A DNA stretch of 64,000 bases, from positions 1-64,000 of the forward strand of contig NZ_MUNZ01000128.1 of NCBI RefSeq assembly GCF_002001205.1. The letters run 5' to 3'. Positions 9,980 through 36,624 of the stretch are shown here, piece after piece. The notes beneath the pieces are model-generated. The model was not told the DNA's origin. It saw only the letters and a list, made by a program, of their open reading frames with translations, and ran no database searches. Made by a program: the position numbers and the translations under genes. The first letter of the stretch is position 1, and each line of letters opens with the position of its first letter. This DNA is from Hydrogenophaga sp. A37 (lineage in GTDB: Bacteria; Pseudomonadota; Gammaproteobacteria; Burkholderiales; Burkholderiaceae_C).

Positions 9980-9990
9980 GCGAGGACACC

Positions 9991-13040: not shown

Positions 13041-13043
13041 GCC

Positions 13044-14048: not shown

Positions 14049-14061
14049 CCAGGAGCAACCC

Positions 14062-14589
14062 ATGACCCAGTTGACCGACATTGAAAAACGCGCCAAGGCG
14101 TTTGCGGACGCCCGCGCCGAGGTGACCGGCATCGTCACGGTGCTGAACGACGGCATCGACGCGCTCAAGCGCGACAACTTGCCCGCCCTCAAGCGCTGCA
14201 TTGCCAAGGTGGCCGAGCGCCACGACAACCTGCGCGCCTTGATCGACGCCAACCCGCAGCTGTTCACCAAGCCCAAGACGGTGGTGTTTCACGGCGTGAA
14301 GGTGGGCTTCGCCAAGGGCAAGGGCGGCATCAAGTTCGACGACGCCGAGCAGGTGGTGAAGCTGATCAAGAAGCACCTGCCCGATCAGGCCGACGTGCTG
14401 ATCATCACCAAGGAAACCCCGGCCAAGGACGCGCTGGCGCAGCTGAGCGCGGCCGACCTCAAGAAGATCGGCTGCACGGTGGTGAACACTGGCGAGCAGG
14501 TGGTGATCAAGCCTGCCGACAGCGAGGTGGACAAGCTGGTGGACACGCTGATCAAGGGCGCCACCGAGACCGAGGCGGAAGCGTCATGA
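14062..14589 (+). CDS. gam: Gam-like host-nuclease inhibitor
   Basis: This 175-residue protein belongs to the Mu Gam family, which binds DNA ends (a Ku-like fold) and shields them from exonucleases. The family pattern is visible: an N-terminal helical pair (IEKRAKAFADARAEVTGIVTVLNDGI), then KTVVFHGVKVGFAKGKGGIKFDDAEQVVKLIKKHLP, and the C-terminal strand region GEQVVIKPADSEVDKLV. Length matches Mu Gam closely. Location after the transposases is the standard one. It overlaps the following gene by 4 bp. Confidence 0.92.
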   Translation: MTQLTDIEKRAKAFADARAEVTGIVTVLNDGIDALKRDNLPALKRCIAKVAERHDNLRALIDANPQLFTKPKTVVFHGVKVGFAKGKGGIKFDDAEQVVKLIKKHLPDQADVLIITKETPAKDALAQLSAADLKKIGCTVVNTGEQVVIKPADSEVDKLVDTLIKGATETEAEAS

Positions 14590-19637: not shown

Positions 19638-22600
19638 ATGTCTGATGCGCACCCGCTACTGAATCCCTCTTCTTTGCCCGAGCCGGGGGAGGCCCTCCCG
19701 GCCCCCGCAGAAACCGGGCTGATCCGCATCCGCGGCGCGCGCCAACACAACCTGAAGAACATCGATCTCGACATCCGCACCGGTGAACTCACCGTGGTCA
19801 CTGGGCCCAGCGGATCGGGCAAGTCCAGCCTGGTGTTCGACACGTTGTTCGCCGAAGGCCAGCGGCGCTATGTGGAAACCTTCAGCGCCTACGCACGCCA
19901 GTTTCTCGACCGCATGGACAAGCCGGCCGTGGACCGGGTGGACGGCGTGCCGCCCGCCATCGCCATCGACCAGACCAACCCGGTGCGCAGCTCGCGCTCG
20001 ACCGTGGGCACGATGACCGAGCTGAACGACCACCTGAAGCTCTTGTTCGCGCGCGGGGCCGACCTGTTCGACCGAGAGACCGCGCTGCCGGTGCGTCACG
20101 ATTCGCCGGAGTCGATCTACGCGGAACTGCAGAAACGCTGTGTTGAGTTGAATGACCCCAGGCTGGTGGTGACCTTCCCGGTCGAATTGCCGGCCAGCAC
20201 CACACCCGAAGAGATCGAACAATGGCTTTCCGCGAGCGGCTACACGCGGGTGCAGGCCGAGCGCATCGTCCAGCGTGCCGCACCGGCGCCCGATGCGAAA
20301 GCCGCCAAGACCACCAAGGCCAAAGCCGCCAAAGGCACCCCTGCCAGCGAATCGGTGAAGGTGCTCGACGTGGTGGCCGACCGCTTCCGCATCGGCACCG
20401 CCGAGCAGGTGCGCGTGATGGAGGCCATCGAAGCCGGCCTCAAGCGCGGCAGCGGCAAGTTGATGGTCTACGTGCTGGGCGAGGAGGGTGCCGAGCCAGT
20501 GATCTGGAGGTTCTCGACAGGATTGCATTGCCCCGAGAGCGACATCCGCTACACCGATCCCACGCCCTCGATGTTCTCCTTCAACTCCGCCGTCGGCGCC
20601 TGCGAGGCCTGCCGCGGTTTTGGCCGTGTGATCGGGGTGGACCACGGCCTGGTGATCCCGAACGACAAGCTCACGCTGCGCAATGGTGCGATCAAGATCT
20701 TCCAGACCCCGGCCTGGAAAGAAGCGCAAGACGACCTGATGCGCCACGCTGAAAGCGCGGGCATCCCGCGCGACACGCCCTGGAACAAGCTCACGCCCGA
20801 ACAGCAACATTGGGTCAAGGCCGGCTCGCCGAACTGGAACGGCAAGTGGAACCAGCACTGGTTCGGCATCGCGCGCTTCTTCGAGTACCTGGAGAGCAAG
20901 GCCTACAAGATGCACATCCGTGTGCTCTTGTCCAAGTACCGCAGCTACACCGAATGCCCGAGCTGCGGCGGCGCGCGCCTGAAGACCGACAGCCTGCTTT
21001 GGCGCATCGGCACCAAGGCCCAGGCCGACGCGGTGCTGCCGCCCGGGAAGCGGTACCTGCCCAAGGGTGTGGCGTGGTCGCGTGCGCAGCTGGAGGCCGT
21101 GCCCGGCTTGTGCCTGCACGACCTGATGCTGATGCCGCTGGACAGGTTGCGGGTGTTTTTTGCGGCGCTGGACAAGACGCTGGTCCCTGCGGGCTCGGAC
21201 CTCGCGGGCGCCGGCCAGGCGCAGGCGGTGCGCCTGCTGTTCGAAGAGATCAACACCCGCATCCGCTACCTCTGCGAGGTCGGCATCGGCTACCTCACGC
21301 TCGACCGCCAGAGCCGCACGCTCAGCGGCGGTGAGGTGCAGCGCATCAACCTCACCACGGCGCTCGGCACCTCGCTGGTGAACACGCTCTTCGTGCTGGA
21401 CGAGCCCAGCATCGGCCTGCACCCGCGCGACATGGCGCGCATCAACGACGCCATGCTGCGCCTGCGCGACGCGGGCAACACGCTGGTGGTGGTGGAGCAC
21501 GACCCGGCCGTGATGCTGGCGGCCGACCGACTGATCGACATGGGTCCGGGGCCGGGTGAGCGCGGCGGGCAGATCGTGTTCGACGGCACGCCCGAGCAGA
21601 TCCGCAGCGCCGACACGCTGACCGGCGCCTACCTGGGCGCGCGCAAGACCGTGGGCATGGGCTTCAAGCGCATGGTGACCGACAGCACGCCGCGCCTCAT
21701 CCTCGAAGGCGCGCGCGAACACAACCTGCAAAACGTGAGTGTCGAGTTCCCGCTGCAGCGCCTGGTGGTGGTCACCGGCGTGTCCGGCTCGGGCAAGTCC
21801 AGCCTGATCCAGGACGTGCTCGCTCCCGCGCTGCTGCGCCACTTCGGCAAGTCCACCGACTCACCGGGCGCACACGACCGCCTGTTGGGCGCTGACTTCT
21901 TGAGCGAAGTGGTGTTCGTCGATCAATCGCCCATCGGCAAGACCGCGCGCTCCAACCCGGTGAGCTACGTCGGCGCCTGGGACGCGGTTCGCGCCCTGTT
22001 TGCCGACGCGCCGCTCTCGCGCCAGCGCAGCTACACCGCCAGCAAGTTCAGCTTCAACAGCGGCGACGGGCGTTGTCCCACCTGCGGTGGATCGGGCTTC
22101 GAACACGTGGAAATGCAGTTTCTGAGCGACGTGTATTTGCGTTGCCCGGACTGCGATGGCAAACGCTACCGGCCCGAAATTCTGGAGGTGCGCATCGAAC
22201 GCGGCGGGCGGATGCACAACGTGGCCGATGTGCTGAACCTCACCGTGAGCGAAGCGGCCGGGTTGTTCGCGAGCGACCGCGAGGTGATCCGCGCGTTGCA
22301 GCCCATCGTGGACGTGGGCCTCGAATACGTGAAGCTCGGCCAGCCGGTGCCGACCCTGTCGGGCGGCGAAGCGCAGCGTCTGAAGCTCGCGGGCTTCCTG
22401 GCCGAAGCCGCCAAGAGCGCCAGCGCCAGCCGCCAGCCCATCTCGCGCAAGGGCACGCTGTTCCTGTTCGACGAGCCCACCACCGGCCTGCACTTTGACG
22501 ACATCGCCAAGCTCATGCGCAGCCTGCGCAAGCTGCTCGACGCCGGGCATTCGCTGGTCGTGATCGAACACAACCTCGACGTGATCCGCGCCGCCGACTG

Positions 22601-25600
22601 GCTGATCGACCTCGGCCCCGAAGGCGGCGCGGGCGGTGGACTGGTGGTGGCCGAAGGGCCGCCGGAAGACGTGCGCCAGCACCCCAGCAGTCACACCGCC
22701 AAGGCCCTGCGCGCCTACGCCGAGTCCATGGGCGAGGTGCACGCGGTGCACGAAGGCCGGCTGGTGGATTACCTGAAGCAACCGCAGCGCCAGCGCGCCT
22801 CGGCCGCGCGCACCGCGGGCCACAGCAACGCCATCCGCATCGTCAACGCCAAGGAACACAACCTCAAGAACCTGAGCGTGGACATCCCACGCGGCCAGTT
22901 CAACGTGATCTCCGGCGTCAGCGGTTCCGGCAAGTCCACGCTGGCCTTCGACATCCTGTTCAACGAAGGCCAGCGGCGTTACCTCGAATCGCTCAACGCC
23001 TACGCGCGCAGCATCGTGCAGCCGGCGGGACGGCCCGAAGTGGACGCGGTCTACGGCATCCCGCCCACGGTGGCGATCGAACAGCGGCTCTCGCGCGGTG
23101 GCCGAAAGAGCACGGTCGGCACCACCACCGAGGTCTGGCACTTCCTGCGCTTGCTCTACGTGAAGCTGGGCACGCAGCACTGCGTGCACGACGGCGCAGC
23201 CGTCATGCCGCAAAGCCCCGAGAGCATTGCCGCCGCCATCCTCACGCGCTACGTCGGCCAGCACATCGGGCTGCTCGCGCCGCTGGTGGTGAACCGCAAG
23301 GGCGTCTACACCGAGCTGGCCGACTGGGCACGCCCGCGCGGCCACACCCACCTGCGCGTGGACGGCGAGTTCCTGCCCACAAGCGGCTTTCCGCGCATCG
23401 ACCGTTTCAAGGAACACACCATCGAACTGCCGGTGGCCGACGGCGTGGTGGACCCGGCCAACGAAGCCTGGCTGCGCAGCCAGCTCAGCAAGGCGCTGGA
23501 GATCGGCAAGGGTCAGGTGCATGTGCTGCATCAGATGGACGGCCTGGCGCAAGCCATGGCCGACGGCACGTCCACCGTGGGCTTGGGCAAGCTGGAGGTG
23601 TTTTCCACCAACCGCGCCTGCCCGGTCTGCGCCACCAGCTACCCCGAGCTGGATCCGCGCCTGTTCTCGTACAACAGCAAACACGGCTGGTGCCCCGACT
23701 GCGTGGGCACGGGTCTGGCGCTCTCGCGCGAGCAGCGCAAGGCGCTCGATGATTCGGTGCGCGACGACGACCAGAAGGGCCGCGAGCAGAGCTTTGCCGA
23801 GCCCGAGGTGGAAGACCTTGCGGATCAACCGTGTCCGGGGTGTGAAGGCACACGATTGAATGCCCAGGCCCGTGCGGTGAAGTTTGGCGGTGTGGGCATC
23901 ACGGACGTGGCCCGTCTGTCGGTGAACGAAGTCCGCTCTTGGGTGCAGGGCTTGCTGAAAGTGGCCGTGCTGACGAGCCGCGAAGCCGACATCGCCCGTG
24001 ACCTGTTGCCCGAGATCGAGAGCCGCCTCGCCTTCCTGGAAGAGGTGGGCCTGAACTACCTCACGCTCGATCGTGGCGCGCCCACGCTCAGCGGCGGCGA
24101 AGCGCAGCGCATCCGCCTCGCGGCGCAACTCGGCAGCAACCTGCAGGGCGTGTGTTACGTGCTCGACGAGCCGACCATCGGACTGCACGCGCGCGACAAC
24201 GCGATCCTTCTCAACGCGCTGCACAAGCTCGGCGACATGGGCAACACCCTGGTGGTGGTGGAACACGACGAAGACACCATCCGCCGCGCCGACCACATCA
24301 TCGACATCGGTCCCAGTGCGGGAAAACGGGGTGGGCGTGTCGTGGCGCAAGGGTCGGTGGCCGATCTGTCGGCGAATGAAGAGTCCGTCACCGGGCGCTA
24401 CCTGCTGCATGCGATGAAACATCCGCTGCAGGCGCGGCGTGGCGTCTTGCCCCTCACCCCAACCCTCTCCCCAGAGGGGCGAGGGAGTGAAAGCCCGTTG
24501 TCTTCGGCGGCACGTTCGAGCGAAAAACCCCCTCTCCCGCTGGCGGGAGAGGGCGGGGGTGAGGGTCTGCCGTGGCTCGAAGTCCGCGGCGCTCGCCTGC
24601 ACAACCTGCAAAACCTCACCGTCGCCGTCCCCCTGCAACGCCTGGTCGTCATCACCGGCGTCAGCGGCTCCGGCAAATCCACCTTCGCGCGCGATGTGCT
24701 GCTCACCAACGCAGCAGCGGCGGTGTCCCAGCGCAGCACCTTCGCCGGCCGCCAGACCTGGGACAACGACGGCACCCGGCCCGCCTGGACCGGCTGCGAC
24801 AAGCTGCTCGGCTCCGAGGTGGTGGACCGCGTGCTCGAAGTCGACCAGACGCCCATCGGCAAAACGCCGCGCAGCTGCCCGGCCACCTACATCGGCTTTT
24901 GGGACACGGTGCGCAAACTCTTCGCCGACACGCTCGAAGCCAAGGCGCGCGGCTACGGCCCGGGCCGCTTCAGCTTCAACACCGGCGAAGGCCGCTGCCC
25001 GGGCTGCGAAGGGCAGGGCATGCGCACCATCGAGATGAGCTTCCTGCCCGACGTCAAGGTGCCTTGCGAGGTCTGCCACGGCGCGCGCTTCAACCCCGAG
25101 ACCCTGGCCGTGAGCTGGAAGGGCAAGAGCATCGGCGACGTGCTGCAGATGGAGGTGGACGAAGCGGTCGAGTTTTTCGCCTCCATGCCCAACATCGCCC
25201 ACCCACTGCAACTGCTGAAAGATGTGGGCCTGGGCTACCTCACGCTGGGCCAGCCATCACCGACGCTGAGCGGCGGCGAAGCGCAGCGCATCAAGCTCGT
25301 GACCGAGCTCAGCAAGGTGCGCGACGACGTCACACGGCGGGGCCAGAAGGCGCCGCACACGCTCTACGTGCTCGACGAACCCACTGTGGGCCTGCACATG
25401 GCCGACGTGGAAAAACTCATCCGCGTGCTGCACCGGCTGGTGGACGGTGGTCACAGCGTGATCGTGATCGAACATGACCTGGATGTGATGGCCGAAGCCG
25501 ACTGGATCATCGACCTGGGTCCCGAAGGCGGAGGTGGGGGGGGCCGCGTCGTGGCGGCGACCACCCCTGAGGAGGTGGTGTGCCTGGGCACCCACACCGG

Positions 25601-25634
25601 CAAGGTGCTGGGGCCAGTGCTGGCGCGAGGCTGA
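19638..25634 (+). CDS. uvrA: Double-length UvrA (two UvrA units in one chain, four ABC ATPase domains)
   Basis: The protein has 1998 residues, about twice a normal UvrA. Four Walker A motifs (about residues 56, 714, 1093, 1674) and four ABC signatures (LSGGEVQRI about 561; LSGGEAQR about 907, 1483, 1876) are intact, each with a Walker B ([36 protein letters not shown]). Cys-pair zinc-finger segments ([35 protein letters not shown]) occur in both units. UvrA recognises damaged DNA and loads UvrB. Tandem UvrAs of this length are known in Burkholderiales and Xanthomonadales. Residues about 1606-1643 between domains 3 and 4 are repeat-derived (see separate entry). Confidence 0.93.
24451..24565. 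repeat. REP-type inverted pair inside the uvrA coding frame
   Basis: A CCCTCACCCCAACCCTCTCC-type arm begins at 24451, and its inverted partner (CCCTCTCCCGC to GGGGTGAGGG) ends at 24565. Between them lies a less conserved segment. It is translated in frame as the well-known [11 protein letters not shown] and [11 protein letters not shown] type peptides. The insert sits in the linker between the third and fourth ATPase domains and leaves both domains intact. Confidence 0.88.
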
Positions 25635-25914
25635 GCGGAAAGTCTGAATCGCCAGCCGTTCGGGCCCTGTGTGACAACTGCGCGAACAGCACAGCAAGCC
25701 TCGGTGGTGATCAGCGCCGGGTCAGGGCGCCCGAGTATGCGCATATTGTGCTGAAGTCGATTGATGGCTGTCCAGCAGGGCATTCACGTAGATCAAGCGT
25801 CGGGCTCGCGTTACCATGCACGCGCAGGGCTTCAAAGTCTTGAGTTGAGGTCACTTGACGCCGGATTTCTGCAAGCGGTGTTGTTTCGATTTTTTTACTC
25901 TTAGGAGAACTGTT
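25635..25914. other. Intergenic stretch, more AT-rich toward its end
   Basis: No gene or clear terminator after uvrA was seen. The last 60 bases, which lead into the beta-helix gene, are clearly more AT-rich than the host DNA around. No 5' part of lipB could be recognised here. Confidence 0.4.
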
Positions 25915-26688
25915 TTGACCAGGACGACTTTGCTGAATCGCATTTTTCAAACCGTGTTGGCGTTAACCATTTACAGCCTGATGGGTGTTTCCTTGGTGCA
26001 CGCTCAAGCCACGAGAACATGGGTATCAGGTGTAGGTGATGACGCCAATCCTTGCAGCCGAACGGCACCTTGCAAGACTTTTGCAGGAGCGATCAGCAAG
26101 ACCGCAGTCAACGGCGAGATTTCGGTGCTCGATCCGGGTGGGTTTGGTGCAGTGACCATCACGAAGTCCATCACGATCAATGGCGACGGCACCCTGGCGG
26201 GTATTCTGACCAACGCCGGAAACGGCATCTCTGTCAACGCGTCTGGTGCGGCTGTTACCGTCCGAAATCTTTCGATCGTCGGTTCTGGTACCGGCGCGGT
26301 GGGCATCCGATTGCTGGATGGCGCCGCTTTGATCGTGGACCGCGTCTCCATATCTGGATTTGCGACCGCTGGCATTGAAACTGCGATTGGCACCACAGGA
26401 AATGTCATGGTGCTCAACTCGACCATTGTGAGGAACGGCGGTATCGGCGTTCATGCGGGTGGCGGCTCCATTGCCGTGGAGAACAGCATATTGGCCAACA
26501 ATGGCGTGGGAGCGCAAGCCGGCACAGGCGCCACAGTGCGCCTGACCAACAACGGCGTATACAACAACTTGACCGGTTTCGGATGCGGCGGCGGTGTCTT
26601 GGCATCCAATGGGGACAACCGCAAGGCCAACAATGTTGGTGGTGGGATTCCTGCGTGCTCGCCCACCGTCGCCATTGCTGTGCAATAG
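25915..26688 (+). CDS. Secreted right-handed beta-helix protein
   Basis: The product has 257 residues with a TTG start at 25915, chosen because TAGGAG lies 7 bp upstream and the signal peptide (IFQTVLALTIYSLMGVSLVHA) then falls at the N-terminus. The mature protein begins TRTWVSGVGDDANPCSRTAPCKTFAGAI. It continues with repeated short turns (VTITKSITINGDGTLAG, VTVRNLSIVGSGTG, LIVDRVSISGF, VMVLNSTIVRNGGIGVHAGG, IAVENSILANNG), typical of parallel beta-helix surface or secreted proteins. Substrate unknown. It lies between uvrA and a truncated lipB on DNA that looks more AT-rich, suggesting acquisition. Confidence 0.75.
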   Translation: MTRTTLLNRIFQTVLALTIYSLMGVSLVHAQATRTWVSGVGDDANPCSRTAPCKTFAGAISKTAVNGEISVLDPGGFGAVTITKSITINGDGTLAGILTNAGNGISVNASGAAVTVRNLSIVGSGTGAVGIRLLDGAALIVDRVSISGFATAGIETAIGTTGNVMVLNSTIVRNGGIGVHAGGGSIAVENSILANNGVGAQAGTGATVRLTNNGVYNNLTGFGCGGGVLASNGDNRKANNVGGGIPACSPTVAIAVQ

Positions 26689-26870
26689 CATGGGGTCGAT
26701 TCAGGTCTGAAGTGCCACCTCCGGCGCGAAGGTCCGCAGATGCAATGCCTCCCAAGCGCGAGTTGATCGCTATCGTGCACCACGTTGGGGGATGACTGCG
26801 ATGCGCCTGGGGATGAACGCGCAGTGCATTGCGCCCCAGGTGGAGCCTGGCTGGGCAAACGACGGGTATC
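26689..26870. other. Intergenic stretch upstream of the lipB remnant
   Basis: No gene was seen. CCTGGGG near 26809 and CCCCAGG near 26835, each flanked by TGCG on the left, form a 7-bp inverted repeat around 21 bp. It could be an insertion scar or a weak terminator. Confidence 0.3.
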
Positions 26871-26972
26871 GGCCTGCAGACGGTGGACCTTTCTACAATC
26901 GGGGTCGCCGTTTCATGGGATGAAGCGGCCCAGGTCCTGAGCCAGAAGCTCGGCGCCACCCTCAGCCCTTGA
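26871..26972 (+). pseudogene. lipB: 3' remnant of lipB (octanoyltransferase)
   Basis: Thirty-three codons plus stop read [20 protein letters not shown], then [13 protein letters not shown]. This matches the conserved C-terminus of betaproteobacterial LipB, which normally continues ...[15 protein letters not shown].... The frame upstream of the first Gly has no resemblance to LipB and no start with a ribosome binding site. It sits 28 bp before lipA, the normal lipB position. LipB transfers octanoate from acyl carrier protein to lipoyl domains; this copy lacks the catalytic Cys/Lys region. Confidence 0.8.
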
Positions 26973-27000
26973 ACGCTCTTGCGCCACCCGCGCCCACGCC

Positions 27001-27990
27001 ATGACCCGCCCCGACACACCACAGGCCGCAGCCGGCTACGACGCCACCGCCAAGCAGAAGAGCCAGGCCAAGACCTCACGCATTCCGATCAAGATCGTGC
27101 CGGCCGAGGTGCTGAAGAAGCCCGACTGGATCCGAGTCAAGGCCGGTTCGCCCACCACCCGCTTCTACGAGATCAAGGACGTGCTGCGTGCCAACAAGCT
27201 GGTCACCGTCTGCGAAGAGGCCAGTTGCCCCAACATCGGCGAATGCTTCGGCAAGGGCACGGCCACCTTCATGATCATGGGCGACAAGTGCACGCGCCGC
27301 TGCCCGTTCTGTGACGTGGGCCACGGCCGCCCCGACCCGCTGGACCTGAACGAGCCCGAGAACCTGGCCAAGACGATCGCGGCGCTCAAGCTCAAGTACG
27401 TGGTGATCACCAGCGTGGACCGCGATGATTTGCGCGACGGTGGCGCCGGCCACTTCGTGGCCTGCATTCAGAAGACCCGCGAACTGTCACCGGGCACGCA
27501 GATCGAGGTGCTGGTGCCCGACTTCCGCGGCCGCGACGACCGCGCGCTGGAGATCCTGAAGGCCGCACCACCCGACGTGATGAACCACAACCTGGAGACC
27601 GCACCGCGTCTTTACAAGGAAGCGCGCCCGGGGTCGGATTACCAGTTCAGCCTGAACCTGCTCAAGAAGTTCAAGGCCCTGTTCCCGCACGTGCCGACCA
27701 AGAGCGGCCTGATGGTGGGCCTGGGCGAGACCGACGAGGAAATCCTCGACGTGATGCGCGACATGCGAGCGCACAACATCGAGATGCTGACCATCGGCCA
27801 GTACCTCGCCCCCAGCGGCCACCACCTGCCGGTGCGCCGTTACGTGCACCCGGACACCTTCAAGATGTTCGAGGCCGAGGCCTACAAGATGGGCTTCACC
27901 CACGCCGCCGTGGGCGCCATGGTGCGCAGCTCGTACCATGCCGACCAGCAGGCGCACGGCGTACTCAACAATGCGCAGCCGGGTACCTGA
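27001..27990 (+). CDS. lipA: Lipoyl synthase
   Basis: This 329-residue radical SAM enzyme inserts two sulfurs into octanoyl-lipoyl domains. The radical SAM motif [13 protein letters not shown] holds the CxxxCxxC cluster. The auxiliary cluster motif [16 protein letters not shown] lies just before it. Later markers are [41 protein letters not shown] and the C-terminal [15 protein letters not shown]. The protein is full length. Normally it is downstream of lipB, which here is only a remnant. It is followed after 4 bp by a glycosyltransferase, so the glycan module appears to share its transcript. Confidence 0.97.
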
Positions 27991-27994
27991 CGCC

Positions 27995-29434
27995 ATGTCC
28001 ACGCCAGTGTCAGACACATCGAAGCATTCGCCACCCTTGCGCATCCTGATCACGATGTGCTATCTCGTGCACCGGACGGGCGCAGAGATGTTCACCCGAG
28101 ATCTGGCGCTCTGGATGCGCAACCGTGGTCACTCCGTGACCATTTTCGCCACCGCCTTTGGCGACATGGCTGACGAGTTGCGCCAGGCATCGATCGCCTG
28201 TGTCACCGACGTCGCGGACATGGCCGCGCGGCCCGACGTCATCATTGGCAACACGCATCACGAGACCGTTCGTGCGTTGCTGCATTTTCATGATGTGCCC
28301 GTCCTGACCCTCTGCCACGACCGGAGTGCGGACCATGGCAGACCAGCACAGTTTTCGCAGGTGGTTCGCCATGCGGCGGTTGACGAGAACTGCGCCGAAC
28401 GGCTGGTGCACGAGTTCGGCATCGAACGCCAGCACATTGAGCTCCTCCAGAACGGCATCGATCTCACGCGCTTTCTGCCACGCGAGCCCTTGCCCGTCAC
28501 GCCCCGCACTGCGGTGGTCTTCAGCAACTATGCGTCGCACGACGCCCAGCTGGAGGAGGTTCGCATGGCGTGCGCTGAACGGGGTCTCGCGCTTGATGTG
28601 ATTGGCAGCGGCAGCGGCAACCACCTGACGGATCCGGCCGCCGCGCTGGGGAGATACGACATCGTGTTTGGCAAAGGGCGCTGCGCCACAGAGGCGCTGG
28701 TCACGGGCAACGCGGTGGTGGCACTCGATCCGAGCGCGGGCATGGGAGGAATGGTGTCTGCCGCCACCGTTGCCCATGCACGACGCTGGAATTTTGGCAG
28801 AGCCATCATGACCCGGCCGATCACGCGACAGAATGTGATGGCCGAACTCGACAAGTTCGACGCGCAGGATGCACGAGAGGCCTCGACCTGGGCTCGCAGG
28901 CACTGCGGACTGGATGCCATGCTGTCCGGGCTGGAACACTGCGTGCGGCGAATGGTGGAGACCCGTGCGGTCATCCCGGTACCGGCAGAACAGCGCGCGC
29001 AGGAGATGGCGCGCTACCTGAACGACTGGATCCGGCGTGGCAACGCCACCGCCGCGCACACAGGGATTGCCTCATTGCACCAGCACATCGCGGGCTTGCA
29101 GCAGGCATTCAACGATCAGCAGCGCGCACATCAAGCTCAGATCGACGCTTGGCGCGCCGAGGTTCAACGGACAGCCGAACATGCCACCGAGCTCACCGCG
29201 CGGCTCAATGAGGCAGGTTCCCACTTGGTCGATAAAGATCAACATGCCGTCGAGCTCACAGCACGGCTCGACGAATCAACGTCCCGCCTGGCGGACGCCG
29301 AGGGGCGGGCGCGCAGCGAGCTCGCCGCCCTGCGCGCGCAGTTGAGCGAGATCCACGCCAGCCGATCGTGGCGCATCACTGCGCCGCTGAGGCGAATGTC
29401 CACCTACATCCAGACGAGAATTCAGCCCAGATGA
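27995..29434 (+). CDS. Glycosyltransferase-like protein with C-terminal coiled coil
   Basis: The product is 479 residues. The N-terminal half resembles GT-B glycosyltransferases of the GT4 type: ILITMCYLVHRTGAEMFTRDLALWMRNRGHSVTIFAT (residues about 16-52), then LLQNGIDLTRFLP, a donor-side landmark. The second half-domain reads LDVIGSGSGNHLTDPAAALGRYDIVFGKGRCATEALVTGNAVVALD. From about residue 350 a long helical region with repeated (T/V)ELTARL(N/D)E units suggests a coiled coil. The end (HASRSWRITAPLRRMS) is a motif often seen at the C-terminus of large polysaccharide-associated glycosyltransferases. It starts 4 bp after lipA and overlaps the next gene. Confidence 0.75.
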   Translation: MSTPVSDTSKHSPPLRILITMCYLVHRTGAEMFTRDLALWMRNRGHSVTIFATAFGDMADELRQASIACVTDVADMAARPDVIIGNTHHETVRALLHFHDVPVLTLCHDRSADHGRPAQFSQVVRHAAVDENCAERLVHEFGIERQHIELLQNGIDLTRFLPREPLPVTPRTAVVFSNYASHDAQLEEVRMACAERGLALDVIGSGSGNHLTDPAAALGRYDIVFGKGRCATEALVTGNAVVALDPSAGMGGMVSAATVAHARRWNFGRAIMTRPITRQNVMAELDKFDAQDAREASTWARRHCGLDAMLSGLEHCVRRMVETRAVIPVPAEQRAQEMARYLNDWIRRGNATAAHTGIASLHQHIAGLQQAFNDQQRAHQAQIDAWRAEVQRTAEHATELTARLNEAGSHLVDKDQHAVELTARLDESTSRLADAEGRARSELAALRAQLSEIHASRSWRITAPLRRMSTYIQTRIQPR

Positions 29435-30219
29435 AGCACTTGTTGATTGCTGCCCATCCAGGGCACGAATTGTTGCTGTGGCAATGGCTTCGAAATGAGC
29501 GGCCGCAGGTCGTGGTGCTGACCAACGGAGCGGGATCCAATGGGGTGCCGCGGTTGGACCTCACGATCGACAACCTGGAACGTGCTGGTGCAAGCTGGGT
29601 TTCTCAGGTGGTCGCGCCGGTGCCTGACGCCGCGATCTACCAAGGTCTGCTGGACGGAGACACAGGCCTGTTCACGCAATGGATCGAGGCGCTGACAGCG
29701 CATGTGATCGCAGAGGGCATCGAGTGCATCGTCGCGGACGAAGCGGAGGACTACAACCCCTCCCACGACCTGTGCCGCATTCTGGCCAACCAAGTCGCCA
29801 TCCAGGCGAAGGCGCGTGGCCATTCGGTACTCGCTTACGGCTACCCGACCGTCGGACATCCCAGCCTGCTGACACGCCTCGCGGCCGAAGAGCACGTGGT
29901 GGTCGAACTCGACGTCGAGGCCTGGCGGTCCAAGCTGGACGACATGCACCGCTACGCCCGGCACTTTGGCGGGCAGCTGCAACGGGAGCTTGACGACTTC
30001 GTCGCAGAGTTCGGCGCGGAGGCCTACAGCAAGGAATGCCTGTTCGTTGCGAGACCCACGCGCTATGAGCAAGCAGAGACGCCCTCCCATAAACCCTTCT
30101 TCGAGCGCGTAGGCGAAGAGCGCGTGGCGGCTGGCACCTACAAACACGTCATTCGTGGTGCCCACCTGCAAGTGGTGGCGGACCGTCTGCGAGACCATGC
30201 GTCGCTGATGCGTCGCTGA
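29431..30219 (+). CDS. PIG-L/LmbE-like protein with altered metal motif
   Basis: This 262-residue protein begins HLLIAAHPGHELLLWQWL. The layout resembles the PIG-L N-acetylglucosamine deacetylase fold, whose signature is AHPDDE followed by a later HPDH. Here the signature is AHPGHE, so both aspartates are replaced (Gly and His), and the second motif is YNPSHDLCR. A metal site of different make-up, or loss of hydrolysis, is possible. It overlaps the glycosyltransferase and precedes cysC by 10 bp. Deacetylation of an amino sugar would fit the module, but the changed residues make that uncertain. Confidence 0.6.
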   Translation: MKHLLIAAHPGHELLLWQWLRNERPQVVVLTNGAGSNGVPRLDLTIDNLERAGASWVSQVVAPVPDAAIYQGLLDGDTGLFTQWIEALTAHVIAEGIECIVADEAEDYNPSHDLCRILANQVAIQAKARGHSVLAYGYPTVGHPSLLTRLAAEEHVVVELDVEAWRSKLDDMHRYARHFGGQLQRELDDFVAEFGAEAYSKECLFVARPTRYEQAETPSHKPFFERVGEERVAAGTYKHVIRGAHLQVVADRLRDHASLMRR

Positions 30220-30229
30220 TGCAACAGCG

Positions 30230-30763
30230 ATGCGCACCGATTCACCCTTCACCCTGTGGCTCACTGGCCTGAGCGGCGCGGGCAAGACCACCCTGGGCCA
30301 GGCGGTGTCCCTGGCATTGAACGACAGCGGCCGCCGGTGTGTCGTGCTCGACGGCGATGTGTTGCGCCGCGGCCTGAACCGGGATCTTGGTTTCTGTGAG
30401 CAAGGGCGCAGCGAGAACATCCGCCGCACCGCCGAAGTCGCCCGACTGATGAACGACGCCGGCGTGATCGTTGTGGCAGCGCTGATTTCGCCTTTGCGGG
30501 CGGACCGGGCACACGCCAGCACCATCGTCGGGGCGCAGCGCTTTCTGGAGGTCCACGTCAGCACGCCGCTGGAAGTGTGTGAAGCCGCTGACGTCAAAGG
30601 CCTCTACCGACGCGCCCGGCAGGGCGACCTCCCCCTGTTCACCGGGGTCAGCGCACCCTATGAGGTGCCAGAGGCGCCCTGGCTGTCGATCGATCCCTTG
30701 CGGATGGGGCTGGAGCCTACCGTGCGCGAACTGCTTGCGCTGATCGTGAGCACTGCGCCTTGA
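30230..30763 (+). CDS. cysC: Adenylyl-sulfate (APS) kinase
   Basis: This 177-residue protein is of normal CysC length. It phosphorylates APS to PAPS, the sulfate donor for sulfotransferases. The Walker A GLSGAGKTTL (about residues 13-22), LDGDVLRRGLNRDLGF, the ENIRRTAEVARLM helix, and FLEVHVSTPLEVCEAADVKGLYRRARQG are all typical. It is directly followed by a sulfotransferase gene, so PAPS made here is probably used for sulfation rather than assimilation. No ATP sulfurylase (cysD/cysN) is encoded in the window. Confidence 0.9.
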   Translation: MRTDSPFTLWLTGLSGAGKTTLGQAVSLALNDSGRRCVVLDGDVLRRGLNRDLGFCEQGRSENIRRTAEVARLMNDAGVIVVAALISPLRADRAHASTIVGAQRFLEVHVSTPLEVCEAADVKGLYRRARQGDLPLFTGVSAPYEVPEAPWLSIDPLRMGLEPTVRELLALIVSTAP

Positions 30764-30780
30764 TCCATCAACAACCCCCC

Positions 30781-31650
30781 ATGCCCGTCATCGTGGGCGC
30801 CCCACGTTCAGGCACGACGCTGTTGCGGCTGATGCTCGACGCCCATCCCGACCTCGCGATCCCACCCGAGACGAGCTTCGTCGTTGCAGCCTCCGCGCTG
30901 GACGAATCGACGGACGATGCTCGCGCACGCTTCGTCGACACGGTCACTGCCTATCCGCCCCACGCCCCCAACTGGGGCGACTTCGGTGTGGCGCGCGAAG
31001 CGCTGGCCGAGGCCGTGCAAGGCCTGCAGCCCTTCACCGTGGCCGACGGACTGCGGGCCTTCTACCGCCTTTACGCGCAGCGCTTCAACAAGCCTCGCTG
31101 GGGTGAAAAAACACCGGACTACTCGTTTCACATCGGCGTGATTGGGTCAATGCTGCCAGAGGCCCGGTTCATCCACCTCATCCGCGACGGTCGAGATGTT
31201 GCCGCGTCATGGCGCCAACAATGGTTCACACCGGGTCATGACCCTGAGGTCCTGGCGCGCGCCTGGGTTGACCGGGTGCAGGCGGCCCGCCACGCTGGCC
31301 TTGGCAACACCCACTACACCGAGGTCTTTTACGAAGACCTGGTGGACCGGCCGGAGCCTGTGTTGCGGCATCTGTGCCAGTTCCTGGACCTGCCGTGGTC
31401 GAACCAGTTGCTCAACCATCAAGAACGCGCCCCGCTGAGGCTGGAAGAACACCGGGCACGGATATCGCGTGATGGCAGCGTCGTCGTCAGCCACGAACAG
31501 CGCCTGCGCCAACAGCGGAGAACGATGGAGGGGCCCAGCACGGGGCGTATTGGGTCCTGGCGCGAAGAAATGAGCGAAGAGGAAATCCGGCGTTTCGAAC
31601 GCATCGCGGGCAGCCTGTTGATCGAGCTGGGATATGAGCCAGCACAATAG
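30781..31650 (+). CDS. Sulfotransferase
   Basis: This 289-residue PAPS-dependent sulfotransferase has the 5'-phosphosulfate loop VGAPRSGTTLLRLML at residues 5-19. The 3'-phosphate motif is IHLIRDGRDVAASW (about 129-142). WGEKTPDYSFHI and VFYEDLVDRPEPVLRHLCQFLDLPW are further family markers. A possible earlier TTG start at 30760 overlaps cysC; ATG 30781 is preferred because it places the P-loop at the N-terminus. It likely transfers sulfate to a carbohydrate made or modified by the neighbouring enzymes. The acceptor is unknown. Confidence 0.87.
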   Translation: MPVIVGAPRSGTTLLRLMLDAHPDLAIPPETSFVVAASALDESTDDARARFVDTVTAYPPHAPNWGDFGVAREALAEAVQGLQPFTVADGLRAFYRLYAQRFNKPRWGEKTPDYSFHIGVIGSMLPEARFIHLIRDGRDVAASWRQQWFTPGHDPEVLARAWVDRVQAARHAGLGNTHYTEVFYEDLVDRPEPVLRHLCQFLDLPWSNQLLNHQERAPLRLEEHRARISRDGSVVVSHEQRLRQQRRTMEGPSTGRIGSWREEMSEEEIRRFERIAGSLLIELGYEPAQ

Positions 31651-31697
31651 GCGATCCGCCTCCAGTACGGCGAACCTGCAGAGCCAGACACCCCGAC

Positions 31698-32666
31698 ATG
31701 AATTCCATGCCCCTTTTCTTCGATGACGATCTGGCGATGCCCAGCGGCAACGCAGCCGTTGCCTCGACCCACATCGCCACTGGTGTTGCTCCTGCCGCGC
31801 TGGTCCATGCGGTCGTTGGCCTGGGGCGCTTCGGCAGCACCCATGCCCGCAGGCTGGCCGGGTTGCCGGGCTTTCAACTGCGTGCCATGGTCGACCCTTT
31901 CGCGGCGCTCCCGCTGGACCCTGCCTTGGGCTCGCTGCCACTCCTGCGCCATGTCGACGAGCTGCCCTTGGACATCACATCCGCCACTGTCGCCACCAGC
32001 GACACGGCGCATGCCGACGTGTCGCTGGAGCTGATGGCGCGTGGTTGTCACGTGCTCGTCGAGAAGCCCTTGTGTCTGACGGTGGCCGACGGCATGCGCA
32101 TGTTGCAAGCCGCACGACAGCAGGGGGTGACGCTGTGCACCGGCCACATCGAGCGCTTCAATCCGCTCTTGCATGACGGGTGCCGTGCCCTGCTTCGGGA
32201 GGCTGCGCGGCGCCACCATGGCAAACGCGACCCTTTTCTGCATTTCCGACGCAGCTCGTCCCGCCCAGGTGCGGCGACGGACAGCGTGCTGGACCTGATG
32301 GTGCACGACTTGGACCTCATGGCCTGGTTGTGCGGCATCTCCAACGGCGCTCCACTGGAACTGATCGACCGACAGGTGAGCGCCACCGCTGTGTGCGCAC
32401 GCGTGCAGATCGGTGGATGGGTGGCCGTGTTCGAGAGTGGGTTGGGCGCCACCGTGCCCGAAGCGGTCATACAAGCGCAGACCGAGGGCGGTCCGCTGGC
32501 GCTCGATCTGCGCAGCCCCGAGGCCAGGCGTCACTTGGGCATGGACCCTCTGTGTCAACAATATGTGGCGTTCAGCCGAGCCATCCGTGGCAAATCCAGT
32601 GCCATCGCCACAGGAGACGACGGCCTGGCCGCAGTGGAACGGGCATGCCGAATTCTCGAAGCGTGA
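31698..32666 (+). CDS. Gfo/Idh/MocA-type oxidoreductase
   Basis: This 322-residue NAD(P)-dependent sugar dehydrogenase has a Rossmann motif AVVGLGRFGSTHARRL at about residues 39-54, after a 38-residue N-terminal extension. HVLVEKPLCLTVADG is the family EKP motif, and TGHIERFNP and DLMVHDLDLMAWL follow. It overlaps the aminotransferase by 22 bp. The pair oxidoreductase plus DegT aminotransferase is the usual way to make an amino sugar by C3 or C4 oxidation and amination of a nucleotide sugar. A later start closer to the Rossmann motif cannot be excluded. Confidence 0.83.
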   Translation: MNSMPLFFDDDLAMPSGNAAVASTHIATGVAPAALVHAVVGLGRFGSTHARRLAGLPGFQLRAMVDPFAALPLDPALGSLPLLRHVDELPLDITSATVATSDTAHADVSLELMARGCHVLVEKPLCLTVADGMRMLQAARQQGVTLCTGHIERFNPLLHDGCRALLREAARRHHGKRDPFLHFRRSSSRPGAATDSVLDLMVHDLDLMAWLCGISNGAPLELIDRQVSATAVCARVQIGGWVAVFESGLGATVPEAVIQAQTEGGPLALDLRSPEARRHLGMDPLCQQYVAFSRAIRGKSSAIATGDDGLAAVERACRILEA

Positions 32667-33868
32667 CACCAGGCGCCGCGCCGGCCGCGATCCCCTTCTT
32701 CCGGTCGCCGTTTTGCAACGATCCCGAAGTGACCGGACGCATCACCCGCGCCTGCGCAGACGTGCTGCGCAGCGGCGTGTACGTGCTCGGCCCGCAGGTG
32801 CGTGCCTTCGAGGCTTCGATGTCGGCGTTGCTCGGCGCGCGTGAGGTTGTTGCTGTCAACTCCGGCTCTGACGCCTTGTGCCTGGCACTGGCAGCGCTCG
32901 GTGTGGGAACGCTCGGGGGTGGCAGTGCCGACGATGAAGTTGTCTTGCCGGCCTACACCTTCGTGGCCTGTGCCGAAGCCGTGCTCGCAGCCGGCGCCCG
33001 ACCGGTGTTCGTGGACTGTGACGCGAGCGGCTTCCTGCCATCGCTGGAGGCGCACCAAGCTGCCCGCGGCGTGCGCACCCGTGCCGTGCTCGCGGTCGGT
33101 TTGTTCGGCGATGCCTCGGCCCTGCCTGCGCTCGCCGCTTACTGCCGCGAGCAGGGCCTGTGGCTGGTTGAGGACATCGCGCAGTGCCTCGGTGCAAGTT
33201 GCACCGCGCCCGACGGCACCGCACGCCTGGCCGGCACCTGGGGCGACGCGGCGGCGATGAGCTTCTACCCCACCAAGACCCTGGGCGCGGTGGGTGACGC
33301 CGGTGCGATGGCGTTTGCCGACGCAAGGCATGCGCGACAGGCCCGCCTGCTTCGCAACCACGGCCACGAGGCCAACGAACACCTGTGCCTGGGTCGCAAC
33401 AGCCGCATGGACGAACTGCAGGCCGCCCTGCTGCAAATTGCGCTGGAGACGTTTCCCCTGGCGCTCGCTCGCCGCCGCCAGATCGCCTCACGCTATTTGG
33501 CTGCCTGGGCCGCCTTGCCAAGGCTGACGCTGCCCCAGGACCACGAGGGACATGCGTGGAATTACTTCGTCGTCACGCTTGAGTCCGGCGGGCAACGCGA
33601 TGCGCTGGCAGACGCACTGGCCAGGGAGGGCGTCGCGACCCGGATCTACTACTCGGCGCCACTGCATCACCACCGTGCGCTGGCCCCGCTGCACGACGGC
33701 CGGGCGCTGCCTCGCAGCGAGCACCTCGCGCAATGTTCGCTGGCCCTGCCGCTGTACCCGGCGCTGAACGACGGAGAAATCGACCGCATCATCGACGTCC
33801 TTCCCGGGGCGCTGGATCAAGCGATGTGGGCCGCCGCAACGATCGCTGGCTCGGCGCCCTTGCGATGA
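32645..33868 (+). CDS. DegT/DnrJ/EryC1 family sugar aminotransferase
   Basis: This 407-residue PLP enzyme shows IPFFRSPFCNDPEVTGRI at the N-terminus and VAVNSGSDALCLAL for cofactor phosphate binding. The second PLP-contact region is VEDIAQCLGA, and the Schiff-base lysine lies in MSFYPTKTLGAVGDAGAM. RNSRMDELQAALLQ is a further marker. The ATG at 32645 lies inside the end of the oxidoreductase gene; a GTG a few codons later is possible. It would aminate the keto-sugar made by the oxidoreductase, giving an amino sugar for the putative sulfated glycan. Confidence 0.88.
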   Translation: MPNSRSVTPGAAPAAIPFFRSPFCNDPEVTGRITRACADVLRSGVYVLGPQVRAFEASMSALLGAREVVAVNSGSDALCLALAALGVGTLGGGSADDEVVLPAYTFVACAEAVLAAGARPVFVDCDASGFLPSLEAHQAARGVRTRAVLAVGLFGDASALPALAAYCREQGLWLVEDIAQCLGASCTAPDGTARLAGTWGDAAAMSFYPTKTLGAVGDAGAMAFADARHARQARLLRNHGHEANEHLCLGRNSRMDELQAALLQIALETFPLALARRRQIASRYLAAWAALPRLTLPQDHEGHAWNYFVVTLESGGQRDALADALAREGVATRIYYSAPLHHHRALAPLHDGRALPRSEHLAQCSLALPLYPALNDGEIDRIIDVLPGALDQAMWAAATIAGSAPLR

Positions 33869-34080: not shown

Positions 34081-36624
34081 ATGGCTTTGGAAAAACCGGT
34101 GGTTCTGATCACTGGCGCGGCCGGGCGGCTCGGCAAGGCGATCAGCGCGGCGCTGGGCGAGCGCTACACCGTGGTGGGGTTCGAGCTCGACTGCCGGCAG
34201 GCGGCCGATTGCATCGACGCTGACATCACGGACGCGGCGGCGCTCGCCACCGCCTGCCAGCGCCTGCGCGAGCGCTGCGGTGGGCGCCTGGCGTCGGTCA
34301 TCCATCTGGCCGCCTTCTACGACTTCTCCGGCGAGCCCGATGAGCGCTACGAGACGGTCAACGTGCAGGGCACGCGCCACCTGTTGCAGGCCTTGCAGGA
34401 CTTCGATGTCGAGCAGTTCGTCTACGCCAGCACCATGCTGGTCCACGCCCCGACCGAGCCCGGCGTGCCGCTCGACGAAACGGCCGAACTGGCGCCGAAA
34501 TGGCCGTATCCCGAATCCAAGGTGGCGGCGGAAGACGTGGTGCGCCGGGAGCGTGGCCGGATTCCGGTCGTGATCCTGCGCCTCGCCGGTGTCTACACCG
34601 AAGACTGCGAAGTGCCGTCGCTGGCCTATCAGGTTCAGCGCATCTACGAGCGGCAGATGTTGAGCCATGTCTTTCCCGGCGACCCGGGCCACGGCCAGGC
34701 TTTTGTGCATCTGGACGACGTGGCCGAGGCCTTCCGGCAGACAGTGGCGTCGCGCCAGAAACTGGCCGAAGAAACGACCGTGCTGATCGGCGAGCCAACA
34801 ACCGAGAGTTACGAATCCCTGCAGAACCTGATCGGCCGCCTGCTGCACGGCGAAGCCTGGACGACGCGGCGCATCCCGAAGCCGGTGGCGGCCACCGGCG
34901 CCTGGGCGCAGGACGCGATGGAGGACGTCATTCCCGACGCCATCGACCGCGGCATCGACCCTTTCATCAAACCCTTCATGGTCTGGCTGGCCGACGACCA
35001 CTACGAATTGGATGTCGCTCGCGCCGCCCAGCTGCTCGGCTGGCGACCGCGCCACAGCCTGCGCGGCGCGCTGCCTAGGATGATGGGCCGCTTGAAGCAG
35101 GGCCCGGCCGCCTGGTACGGCCGCAATCACATCCCGGTTCCCCTCTGGCTGCAGGACCTGAGCGAGCAGTCGGCACCTGAAACGCAACTGATCGCCGAAT
35201 TCGAGGCCGTCGACCGGCGCGAGCACGGGCAGACGGTGTGGTGCCATTTCGTCAATGCGGCGCTGGGCCTGTGGCTGGTGTCCAGCCCCTTCATCCTCGG
35301 CCTGGCCGAGCACTGGGGCGTCGCTGGTGAGCTGGTGGTGGCACCCAACCAGCGCGGCCTGGCCTTCTCGGACACCTGGATGACCGCCAGCGACATCCTG
35401 AGCGGCTTGCTGATCACCGTGTTCGCCCTGTTGTCGCTGTCGCGCAGCGCGGCCTGGGCGCGCTGGGCGACGGCCGCGCTGGGCGGCTGGCTGCTGTTCG
35501 CGCCGCTGGTCTTCTGGACGCCCAGCGCCGCCGCCTACGCCAACAACACGCTGGTCGGCGCCCTGGTCATCCTGTTCGCGGTCGGCGTGCCGTCGCCGCC
35601 AGGGGTCAGCCCGGTCGCCCGGCTGGTCGGGCCGGACACGCCGCCCGGCTGGGACTACAGCCCGTCTTCGTGGAACCAGCGCATCCCGATCATCGCCCTG
35701 GCCCTGGTCGGGCTGTTCATTTCGCGCTACCTCGCCGCCTTCCAGCTCGGTCACATCGATACCGCCTGGGACCCGTTTTTTGGCGACGGCACGGAGCGCA
35801 TCGTCACCTCCTCGGTGTCCGAGGCCTGGCCGGTGGCCGATGCCGGGCTGGGCGGCGCCGTCTATGTGCTCGAGATCATCACCGGCGTCATCGGCGACAA
35901 GCGGCGCTGGCGCACGATGCCCTGGCTGGTGCTGCTGTTCGGCGTGATGATCGTGCCGCTCGGCGCGGTCAGCATGGTCTTCATCATCATCCAGCCGATC
36001 GTGATCGGCACCTGGTGCACGCTGTGTCTCGTGGCGGCGCTCGCGATGCTGCTGCAGATTCCCTATTCGTTCGACGAGATCCTGGCCACGCTGCAGTTTC
36101 TGCGCGAACGCCGACGGCAAGGCAAATCGTTGTGGCACGTCATGCTGCACGGCGACACCATCGACGGCGGCAGCGCCGATTCCTCCGACGATTTCGCGGC
36201 GCCACCCGGCGCGGTGCTGCGCGAAATGTTCAGCGGCGGCGTCAGCCTGCCGTGGAGCCTGGTCATCAGCGGCGCCCTCGGTGCCGGCCTGATGTTGACC
36301 CGGCTGCTGTTTGACACCACCGGTCCGGCGGCCGACAACGACCACGTGATCGGCTCGCTGGTGATCACCTTCGCCGTCATGGCGCTGGCCGAGGTTGCCC
36401 GCCCGCTGCGCTGGATCATTGCGGCCTTCGGGGTCTGGCTGCTGCTGGCGCCCTGGCTGCTGGATGGCTACAGTGCGGCCGGCAGCGTATTCGTCGGGGT
36501 CGCCGGGCTGTTGCTGATCGGGCTTGCCTTGCCGCGCGGTGCGATCGTCAGCCACTACGGTGCCTGGGACCCCTACCTCAAGGGGCGGGGACGACCGCCC
36601 GGGCGGCCGGCGACGGCGGGATGA
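34081..36624 (+). CDS. Fusion protein: NAD-dependent epimerase, SPW repeat, VKOR-like domain, second SPW-like region
   Basis: The product is 847 residues. Residues about 8-340 are an extended-SDR epimerase/dehydratase with VLITGAAGRLGKAI and the YPESK active site at 143-147. HFVNAALGLWLVSSPFILGL (about 390) is an SPW membrane repeat. Residues about 540-670 are a VKOR-like four-helix membrane domain with CTLC at 646-649. The C-terminus has a further SPW-like pair (IIAAFGVWLLLAPWLL). The usual VKOR loop cysteine pair is absent (ERIVTSSVS instead). It stands alone on the plus strand with a strong GAAGGAG. Possibly membrane-bound redox or quinone-linked; function unknown. Confidence 0.82.
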   Translation: MALEKPVVLITGAAGRLGKAISAALGERYTVVGFELDCRQAADCIDADITDAAALATACQRLRERCGGRLASVIHLAAFYDFSGEPDERYETVNVQGTRHLLQALQDFDVEQFVYASTMLVHAPTEPGVPLDETAELAPKWPYPESKVAAEDVVRRERGRIPVVILRLAGVYTEDCEVPSLAYQVQRIYERQMLSHVFPGDPGHGQAFVHLDDVAEAFRQTVASRQKLAEETTVLIGEPTTESYESLQNLIGRLLHGEAWTTRRIPKPVAATGAWAQDAMEDVIPDAIDRGIDPFIKPFMVWLADDHYELDVARAAQLLGWRPRHSLRGALPRMMGRLKQGPAAWYGRNHIPVPLWLQDLSEQSAPETQLIAEFEAVDRREHGQTVWCHFVNAALGLWLVSSPFILGLAEHWGVAGELVVAPNQRGLAFSDTWMTASDILSGLLITVFALLSLSRSAAWARWATAALGGWLLFAPLVFWTPSAAAYANNTLVGALVILFAVGVPSPPGVSPVARLVGPDTPPGWDYSPSSWNQRIPIIALALVGLFISRYLAAFQLGHIDTAWDPFFGDGTERIVTSSVSEAWPVADAGLGGAVYVLEIITGVIGDKRRWRTMPWLVLLFGVMIVPLGAVSMVFIIIQPIVIGTWCTLCLVAALAMLLQIPYSFDEILATLQFLRERRRQGKSLWHVMLHGDTIDGGSADSSDDFAAPPGAVLREMFSGGVSLPWSLVISGALGAGLMLTRLLFDTTGPAADNDHVIGSLVITFAVMALAEVARPLRWIIAAFGVWLLLAPWLLDGYSAAGSVFVGVAGLLLIGLALPRGAIVSHYGAWDPYLKGRGRPPGRPATAG

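Follow-up and report, generated by a model that had tools for sequence, protein, structure and literature searches.

A conserved four-gene core with an optional sulfation cassette in Hydrogenophaga sp. A37 and other Comamonadaceae: a candidate module for glycan tailoring

Introduction

Six closely packed genes in Hydrogenophaga sp. A37, encoding a glycosyltransferase, an LmbE/PIG-L-like protein, an adenosine 5'-phosphosulfate (APS) kinase, a sulfotransferase, a Gfo/Idh/MocA oxidoreductase and a DegT-type aminotransferase, lie directly behind a copy of lipA, and they raise the question of whether such a set works together and, if it does, what it makes. The genes were found in a stretch of 64,000 nucleotides (NCBI RefSeq assembly GCF_002001205.1, contig NZ_MUNZ01000128.1, positions 1 to 64,000; hereafter the window), which lies within contig C33 of a 5.55 Mb genome (G000). 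The original prediction described them as a six-gene module for glycan sulfation and amino-sugar synthesis, fused to the lipA transcript and probably modifying an existing surface polysaccharide. Our analysis reveals that the block is a four-gene core (glycosyltransferase, LmbE-like protein, oxidoreductase and aminotransferase) with an inserted two-gene sulfation cassette (APS kinase and sulfotransferase), and that the six-gene arrangement is more than chance. With moderate confidence, we read it as a glycan-tailoring module that would synthesize a 3-amino sugar, transfer it to a lipid-linked surface glycan and, where the optional cassette is present, sulfate it.

Architecture and conservation of the gene block

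The frames at 27995-33868 bear out the one-strand layout with overlaps or short gaps that had been described. All six open reading frames are intact; the glycosyltransferase and LmbE-like genes overlap by 4 nt, as do the APS kinase and sulfotransferase genes, and the oxidoreductase and aminotransferase genes overlap by about 20 nt, the start of the latter not being certain. Gaps of 10 nt (LmbE-like gene to APS kinase) and 47 nt (sulfotransferase to oxidoreductase) separate the rest. The six features are as follows.

27995..29434, plus strand: GT4-type glycosyltransferase (Pfam Glyco_transf_4, 45.4 bits, cut-off 28.5)
29431..30219, plus strand: LmbE/PIG-L-fold protein with an HPGH + H motif (predicted fold)
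30230..30763, plus strand: APS kinase of the cysC type, first cassette gene (Pfam, 192.1 bits, cut-off 21.1)
30760..31650, plus strand: sulfotransferase dependent on 3'-phosphoadenosine 5'-phosphosulfate (PAPS) (Pfam Sulfotransfer_3, 128.3 bits, cut-off 27)
31698..32666, plus strand: Gfo/Idh/MocA oxidoreductase, probable sugar (nucleotide) 3-dehydrogenase (Pfam GFO_IDH_MocA, 66.6 bits, cut-off 24)
32648..33868, plus strand: DegT/DnrJ/EryC1/StrS aminotransferase, probable sugar 3-aminotransferase (Pfam DegT, 293.2 bits, cut-off 19.8)

Comparison across 31 distinct loci with the LmbE-like gene (duplicates merged and a weak match dropped, one locus per sequence of alignment A2) revealed the core order of glycosyltransferase, LmbE-like gene, oxidoreductase and aminotransferase on one strand in 27, in Hydrogenophaga, Variovorax, Acidovorax, Diaphorobacter and other Comamonadaceae. 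The four deviating loci are L015, which has no adjacent aminotransferase gene, L041 and L042, with glycosyltransferase and LmbE-like genes only, and L040, in which the LmbE-like gene precedes the glycosyltransferase gene; at L014 the glycosyltransferase and aminotransferase frames look broken. A search for the six-gene order in other genomes showed some conservation among relatives, the same order recurring at seven of the 31 loci (the window, L004/L024, L023, L025, L027, L080 and L081), each with the kinase and sulfotransferase genes between the LmbE-like and oxidoreductase genes. The six-gene unit originally proposed is thus real as an order, but it is not the basic unit, for the core stands without the cassette in 24 of the 31. 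The dN/dS ratios (NG86) are 0.10-0.30 for all six genes against up to four chosen relatives (two Hydrogenophaga, two Variovorax); none of the genes looks to be decaying, and all six look to be under purifying selection. It is the recurrence of both orders, together with this selection, that places the arrangement beyond chance.

The LmbE-like protein occurs in two of 60 relatives (the window genome and H. taeniospiralis NBRC 102512, G035), in nine of 399 genomes of the family (the window genome counted, one of the nine weak), in 16 of 101 Variovorax genomes and at 20 or more loci of a named genome collection, the last figure being a lower bound because that scan used two short peptide patterns. 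One weak match (G193; 29% identity, E 4.7e-4, one stop) was left out of the counts. A codon-usage caller, prone to overlooking or truncating genes of low score, supplied the neighbouring genes, and most neighbours were read by eye. In Variovorax sp. 679 (L032) the module is sited elsewhere, in a stretch without a lipA match, and an extra gene directly follows the aminotransferase gene.

The sulfation cassette

The two cassette genes are jointly present or absent between the LmbE-like and oxidoreductase genes. At two of the 31 loci (L014, L037) a sulfotransferase gene without the kinase lies divergently upstream of the core, and this adjacency in two arrangements, within the operon with the kinase and divergent without it, supports a role of sulfation in the tailoring proposed here. 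Loss of the cassette has left a deletion scar at two Variovorax loci, L026 and L082. There the sequence runs on past the LmbE-like gene through the APS kinase start codon and roughly the first 15 bases of the kinase gene, and it then resumes with what trails the sulfotransferase stop in L025, L027 and L080. In a concatenated tree of 26 of the 31 loci (L014, L015, L040, L041 and L042 omitted; five gene rows of four loci, namely the glycosyltransferases of L016 and L017, the LmbE-like gene of L028 and the aminotransferases of L016 and L035, contain an internal stop from match extension), L026 falls inside the cassette-bearing Variovorax group, with 97% for L025-L026-L027, and this placement points to cassette loss there. 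L082 lies just outside that group yet carries the same scar, a pattern that one vertical loss does not explain.

Both cassette enzymes are recognizable at family level. The kinase scores 194.3 bits against TIGR00455 (cut-off 138.7) and 200.9 bits against NF003013 (cut-off 163), its closest solved protein is the APS kinase domain of PAPSS1, and its P-loop is retained, along with stretches that it has in common with human PAPSS1. The sulfotransferase, which starts at the TTG as listed or at an ATG 21 nt downstream, is closest among solved proteins to protein-tyrosine sulfotransferases and then to the CurM sulfotransferase; its motif RSGTTLL, which we take to be the loop typical of PAPS-dependent sulfotransferases, is found in nine of nine aligned relatives.

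The distribution of the kinase bears on what its product is for. A protein search of 24 Hydrogenophaga genomes found full-length APS kinase in two, the window genome and H. taeniospiralis, which are the two with the module, and a partial match in a third (G027; 43 residues at 42%). All six genomes tried with the Pfam profile exceeded its low cut-off; apart from the module kinase itself, G000, G035, G001, G003 and G005 reach only 22.4 bits over about 46 positions, and G062, which belongs to a different genus, has a full match of its own. The Sulfotransfer_3 profile, the one sulfotransferase family searched genome-wide, has a single match in the window genome, the module sulfotransferase, and relatives of this enzyme occur in four of the 17 genomes reached through the loci, three with the in-operon cassette and one with the divergent gene. 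With full-length kinase confined to the two module genomes among the 24 and the two genes paired, PAPS is probably made for the module sulfotransferase, in agreement with the local production and use of PAPS claimed at the outset.

It might instead be supposed that the kinase serves sulfate assimilation and that its place beside the sulfotransferase is incidental. The script-called CysH of the window genome lacks the Cys-pair motif that is usual in APS reductases, an absence that by itself would point to a PAPS requirement. This CysH, however, recurs at 89-93% identity in G003, G025 and G027, and in these three the search gave no full-length APS kinase; assimilation can therefore probably do without the kinase. 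Among the 13 genomes searched for CysH, the other eight gave distant matches only. With the 4-nt overlap and the joint presence or absence of the two cassette genes also against it, this role was rejected and is, in our judgement, hardly probable.

The amino-sugar enzyme pair

The claim of an amino-sugar enzyme pair is upheld at family level, both the Gfo/Idh and the DegT assignment being backed by Pfam. The closest solved relatives of the aminotransferase (searched with P0006, which starts five codons before the probable start) are a scyllo-inositol transaminase, 2oga (titled 'Transaminase', presumably DesV), WbpE and QdtB, and NtdA, to which we ascribe a role in kanosamine formation, is also listed. 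These relatives favour amination at C3, which we consider likely; WbpE (162 bits) and QdtB (161) score above the ArnB-type (115), with no equivalog cut-off reached.

For the oxidoreductase, the best NCBIfam row is UDP-N-acetylglucosamine (UDP-GlcNAc) 3-dehydrogenase, at 73.6 bits against a cut-off of 450, so that the equivalog test failed. The same row speaks for a different product, UDP-GlcNAc3N for lipid A, supplied by the pair as by GnnA/GnnB, which belong to the same two enzyme families, while the glycosyltransferase, LmbE-like protein and sulfotransferase would decorate the lipopolysaccharide core. A distribution as patchy as two of 36 same-genus genomes and 16 of 101 Variovorax genomes is unlike that of a lipid A backbone trait, and, as a weaker point, no lpx gene was recognized by eye among the called neighbours; we give this explanation only a slight chance.

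The LmbE-like protein and the glycosyltransferase

The model of the LmbE-like protein, built from 31 sequences, has a mean predicted local distance difference test (pLDDT) score of 94.4, and in a fold search its top 22 entries (Z 14.6-16.5) were all LmbE/PIG-L structures, the next standing at Z 8.0; against 4xm1_B the root-mean-square deviation (rmsd) is 3.1 over 179 residues. Among the 22 is GalB, a hydratase by title that we understand to belong to the LmbE/PIG-L superfamily, so the fold does not prove deacetylation. By sequence the kinship is hidden, as no curated PIG-L or deacetylase profile of Pfam or NCBIfam matched any of the 31 proteins at E<=1, and a Protein Data Bank (PDB) search with the alignment gave a best E of 0.13.

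In a review (PMC4101496), all characterized members are described as having HXD1D2 + H, with D1 as the general base and D2 as a metal ligand. The present family fails this test, reading H9-P/S10-G11-H12 + H112 in 31 of 31 relatives, so that D1 is replaced by Gly and D2 by His throughout, with Ser at position 10 in nine and Pro otherwise. Residues H9, G11, H12, E13, D66, D103, E106, N109, P110, H112 and D113 are invariant in all 31. With the general-base Asp and the Asp ligand missing, deacylation is doubtful, and since the scaffold is shared and the defining motif is not, the protein was not filed as a PIG-L deacetylase. The earlier label of a PIG-L-like protein therefore survives in the predicted fold and fails in the catalytic motif and the Pfam and NCBIfam profiles; judged from the model, this is an unrecognized LmbE-fold family with an altered motif. 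A bolder idea, which we hold to be improbable, is that the protein founds a three-histidine (HxGH + H) subfamily with new chemistry and, together with the cassette, would unmask and then sulfate the amino group of the 3-amino sugar, as an independent counterpart of heparan N-deacetylation/N-sulfation.

The glycosyltransferase model (pLDDT 82.4) adopts a GT-B fold and matches BshA (6d9t; Z 23.2, rmsd 3.2 over 285 residues), HepE (22.6) and MshA (21.8). In alignment A3, which covers 18 of the 31 loci, E233 is invariant in 18 of 18 and no earlier Glu stands at the spacing of E-X7-E, the donor-side motif of GT4 glycosyltransferases; there is no Glycos_transf_1 match, and a PDB sequence search gave no row at E<=0.01. 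The protein has a long C-terminal helical part, and the end motif SxSWRxTxPxR is kept in all 18 sequences. No relevant paper on this motif or on HPGHE was found in the open-access literature.

These two folds side by side suggest another type of product, a soluble small molecule of the pseudo-disaccharide amino-sugar kind (like mycothiol, bacillithiol or the aminoglycosides), made by the core and sulfated by the cassette. A GT4 enzyme is paired with an LmbE fold in MshA/MshB and BshA/BshB, the best solved relative of the aminotransferase is a scyllo-inositol transaminase with NtdA also listed, and the 16 Variovorax loci and L036 show no exporter match in the stretch compared. The genes of an ABC-type exporter beside the core at six of the 31 loci, described below, speak against it, as do the absence of a ligase-type gene among the six and the long C-terminal part and conserved end motif of the glycosyltransferase, the GT4 enzymes of mycothiol- and bacillithiol-type pathways being compact. 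We consider a soluble product possible but unlikely.

Export, cellular location and proposed pathway

Wzm/Wzt-like ABC-exporter genes lie directly upstream of the core at L013, L015, L016, L017, L038 and L039, with the permease and ATPase families of L013 backed by Pfam, and four of these six loci also have a dTDP-sugar epimerase-like cupin and a GT2 gene downstream. These six relatives help the surface-polysaccharide reading. In the window genome, a possible exporter for the module product is an ABC2 permease and ABC ATPase pair at G000:C44 (L062 8591-10126), which shares 28% and 43% identity with the corresponding two proteins of the relatives.

The highest 19-residue mean hydropathy among the six proteins is 1.74, with no clear membrane span, so the enzymes are probably cytosolic, where PAPS is. 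A cytoplasmic location would equally suit glycosylation and sulfation of a protein such as flagellin or pilin, and the closest solved relatives of the sulfotransferase act on protein tyrosines. We attach little probability to a protein target in view of the exporter association at six of the 31 loci and, more weakly, of the called neighbours, mostly read by eye, among which no flagellar or pilus gene was recognized.

Under the glycan-tailoring reading, the oxidoreductase would oxidize a sugar nucleotide at C3 and the aminotransferase would aminate the oxidized sugar to give a 3-amino sugar. At the cytoplasmic face, the glycosyltransferase would add either this sugar or GlcNAc to a lipid-linked acceptor. 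The substrate of the LmbE-fold protein would be the amino sugar in its transferred or activated form, from which it would most likely take off an acyl group through a putative three-histidine metal site. The APS kinase would make PAPS, and the sulfotransferase would sulfate the product before export by an exporter encoded elsewhere. We infer in this way that the substrate may be an existing surface polysaccharide, as first proposed.

Several findings weigh against this pathway. Neither the oxidoreductase nor the aminotransferase comes near the cut-off of an NCBIfam equivalog for its step, and PseC, the top NCBIfam row of the aminotransferase and likewise far below cut-off, is a C4 enzyme. The LmbE-like protein has neither the Asp that serves characterized members as general base nor their Asp ligand, and the fold matches of the glycosyltransferase are near-tied between small-molecule and glycan enzymes, which leaves the acceptor unfixed. 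The module is rare, being present in two of 36 same-genus genomes with the window genome counted, and no gene for an exporter, a polymerase, an initiating transferase or ATP sulfurylase lies within the block; the polymerase and exporter had been reported absent, which holds for the block.

Association with lipA and genomic surroundings

Two features precede the glycosyltransferase gene, lipA ending 4 nt before its start.

26870..26972, plus strand: lipB 3' remnant (26870-27100 identical at 230/231 positions to the native lipB-lipA region, L061)
27001..27990, plus strand: second copy of lipA, lipoyl synthase (98.8% amino acid identity to native lipA at G000:C169)

The window genome has two lipA genes, and the native lipB-lipA pair on C169 (the neighbour being LipB by NCBIfam) is without the module. 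The window copy differs from the native gene by 44 nt mismatches over 26870-27990, of which 17 fall from 27958 on and give it a different 3' end, and roughly 100 bases of lipB precede it. Of the 16 Variovorax loci, 14 have lipA immediately before the glycosyltransferase gene, and at 13 of these 14 the latter could begin at a start codon that overlaps the lipA stop by 4 nt; lipB precedes lipA in L025 (NCBIfam), and at the other printed Variovorax lipA loci a gene of similar length and sequence start does so. The lipB remnant traces the block to a lipB-lipA locus. Together with the different lipA 3' end, it suggests that lipB', lipA and the module probably reached their present site in one piece, by copying or import; a beta-helix gene and a gene with epimerase-type and VKOR domains flank the site, and lipA is probably a hitchhiker and not part of the glycan pathway.

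The 4-base gap makes co-transcription of lipA and the glycosyltransferase gene plausible. A functional tie to lipoate synthesis through this transcript, for which the Variovorax arrangement and its overlapping start codons could be cited, was rejected because the window lipA is a duplicate. H. taeniospiralis moreover has about 2.4 kb with three called genes between lipA and the module, and relatives outside Hydrogenophaga and Variovorax have no lipA in the stretches compared, so that we find such a tie scarcely credible. The lipA link of the original prediction accordingly stands for position, native in Variovorax, and falls for shared function.

The GC content at third codon positions is 0.75-0.80 in the six genes, 0.87-0.90 in lipA, uvrA and the short-chain dehydrogenase/reductase (SDR) gene and 0.63 in the upstream beta-helix gene. 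The latter, at 25855-26688 on the upstream edge of the block, is of low GC (56.1%), and 34081-36624 encodes a single 847-aa protein combining an epimerase-type domain, SPW repeats and a VKOR domain. Further upstream, 19638-25634 holds a 1998-aa frame with repeated UvrA-type domains and repeat-like in-frame insertions near 24400-24560, and Mu-like prophage genes occupy about 9976-14589, namely an integrase-core protein (27.8 bits, below the Pfam cut-off), an AAA ATPase behind it and a Mu Gam-like protein. Other candidates were tried and rejected: internal promoters and terminators (no promoter-like and four terminator-like sites against shuffle means of 0.8 and 4.1), an anti-phage system (one weak row only, for the APS kinase), plasmid carriage of the LmbE-like gene (no match across 72,556 plasmid records) and recognizable mobile ends (short imperfect repeats only).

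Comparison with known systems and implications

Several known systems come close to the module. MshA/MshB and BshA/BshB, like PIG-A/PIG-L, pair a GT4 transferase with an LmbE protein, and our fold matches reach both partners; the module differs in having HxGH + H in place of HxDD + H, an additional oxidoreductase and aminotransferase pair, sulfation and no ligase-type gene among the six. WbpB/WbpE, GnnA/GnnB and NtdC/NtdA are C3 amino-sugar pairs that likewise join a Gfo/Idh/MocA dehydrogenase to a DegT aminotransferase; the module differs in having no curated-equivalog match and no N-acetyltransferase in the block. In the sulfation of rhizobial Nod factors by NodPQ/NodH and NoeE, PAPS is supplied specifically for an adjacent sulfotransferase whose substrate is an amino-sugar product, as is proposed here, but the NoeE model scores 52.9 against a cut-off of 500 and no chitin-oligomer synthase is among the six.

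The account of the Vibrio sp. KMM 8419 capsule cluster (PMC11641403) presents PAPS-making and sulfotransferase genes among glycan genes as a hallmark of sulfated polysaccharide clusters, and the present block shares this feature. That cluster comprises about 80 genes, among them cysN, cysD and cysC, three for sulfotransferases and those of a Kps-type exporter, whereas the module has one APS kinase, one sulfotransferase and no exporter or polymerase in the block, and its core is found without the cassette at 24 of the 31 loci.

The module is real and conserved, and it is ordinary in kind, built from sugar nucleotide chemistry, transfer and sulfation. In agreement with the prediction that no such set had been described, no paper on it was found in the open-access literature, nor a helpful one on sulfotransferases of Hydrogenophaga or on Variovorax glycans, subscription journals being mostly outside the scope of the search. 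To our knowledge, little has been described of glycan sulfation in bacteria beyond the rhizobia and marine capsules. The HxGH + H protein, unreported by Pfam and NCBIfam, offers a concrete test of the reach of the LmbE catalytic rule. The operon exists in related strains both with the cassette and lacking it, which would allow a clean test of what sulfation does.

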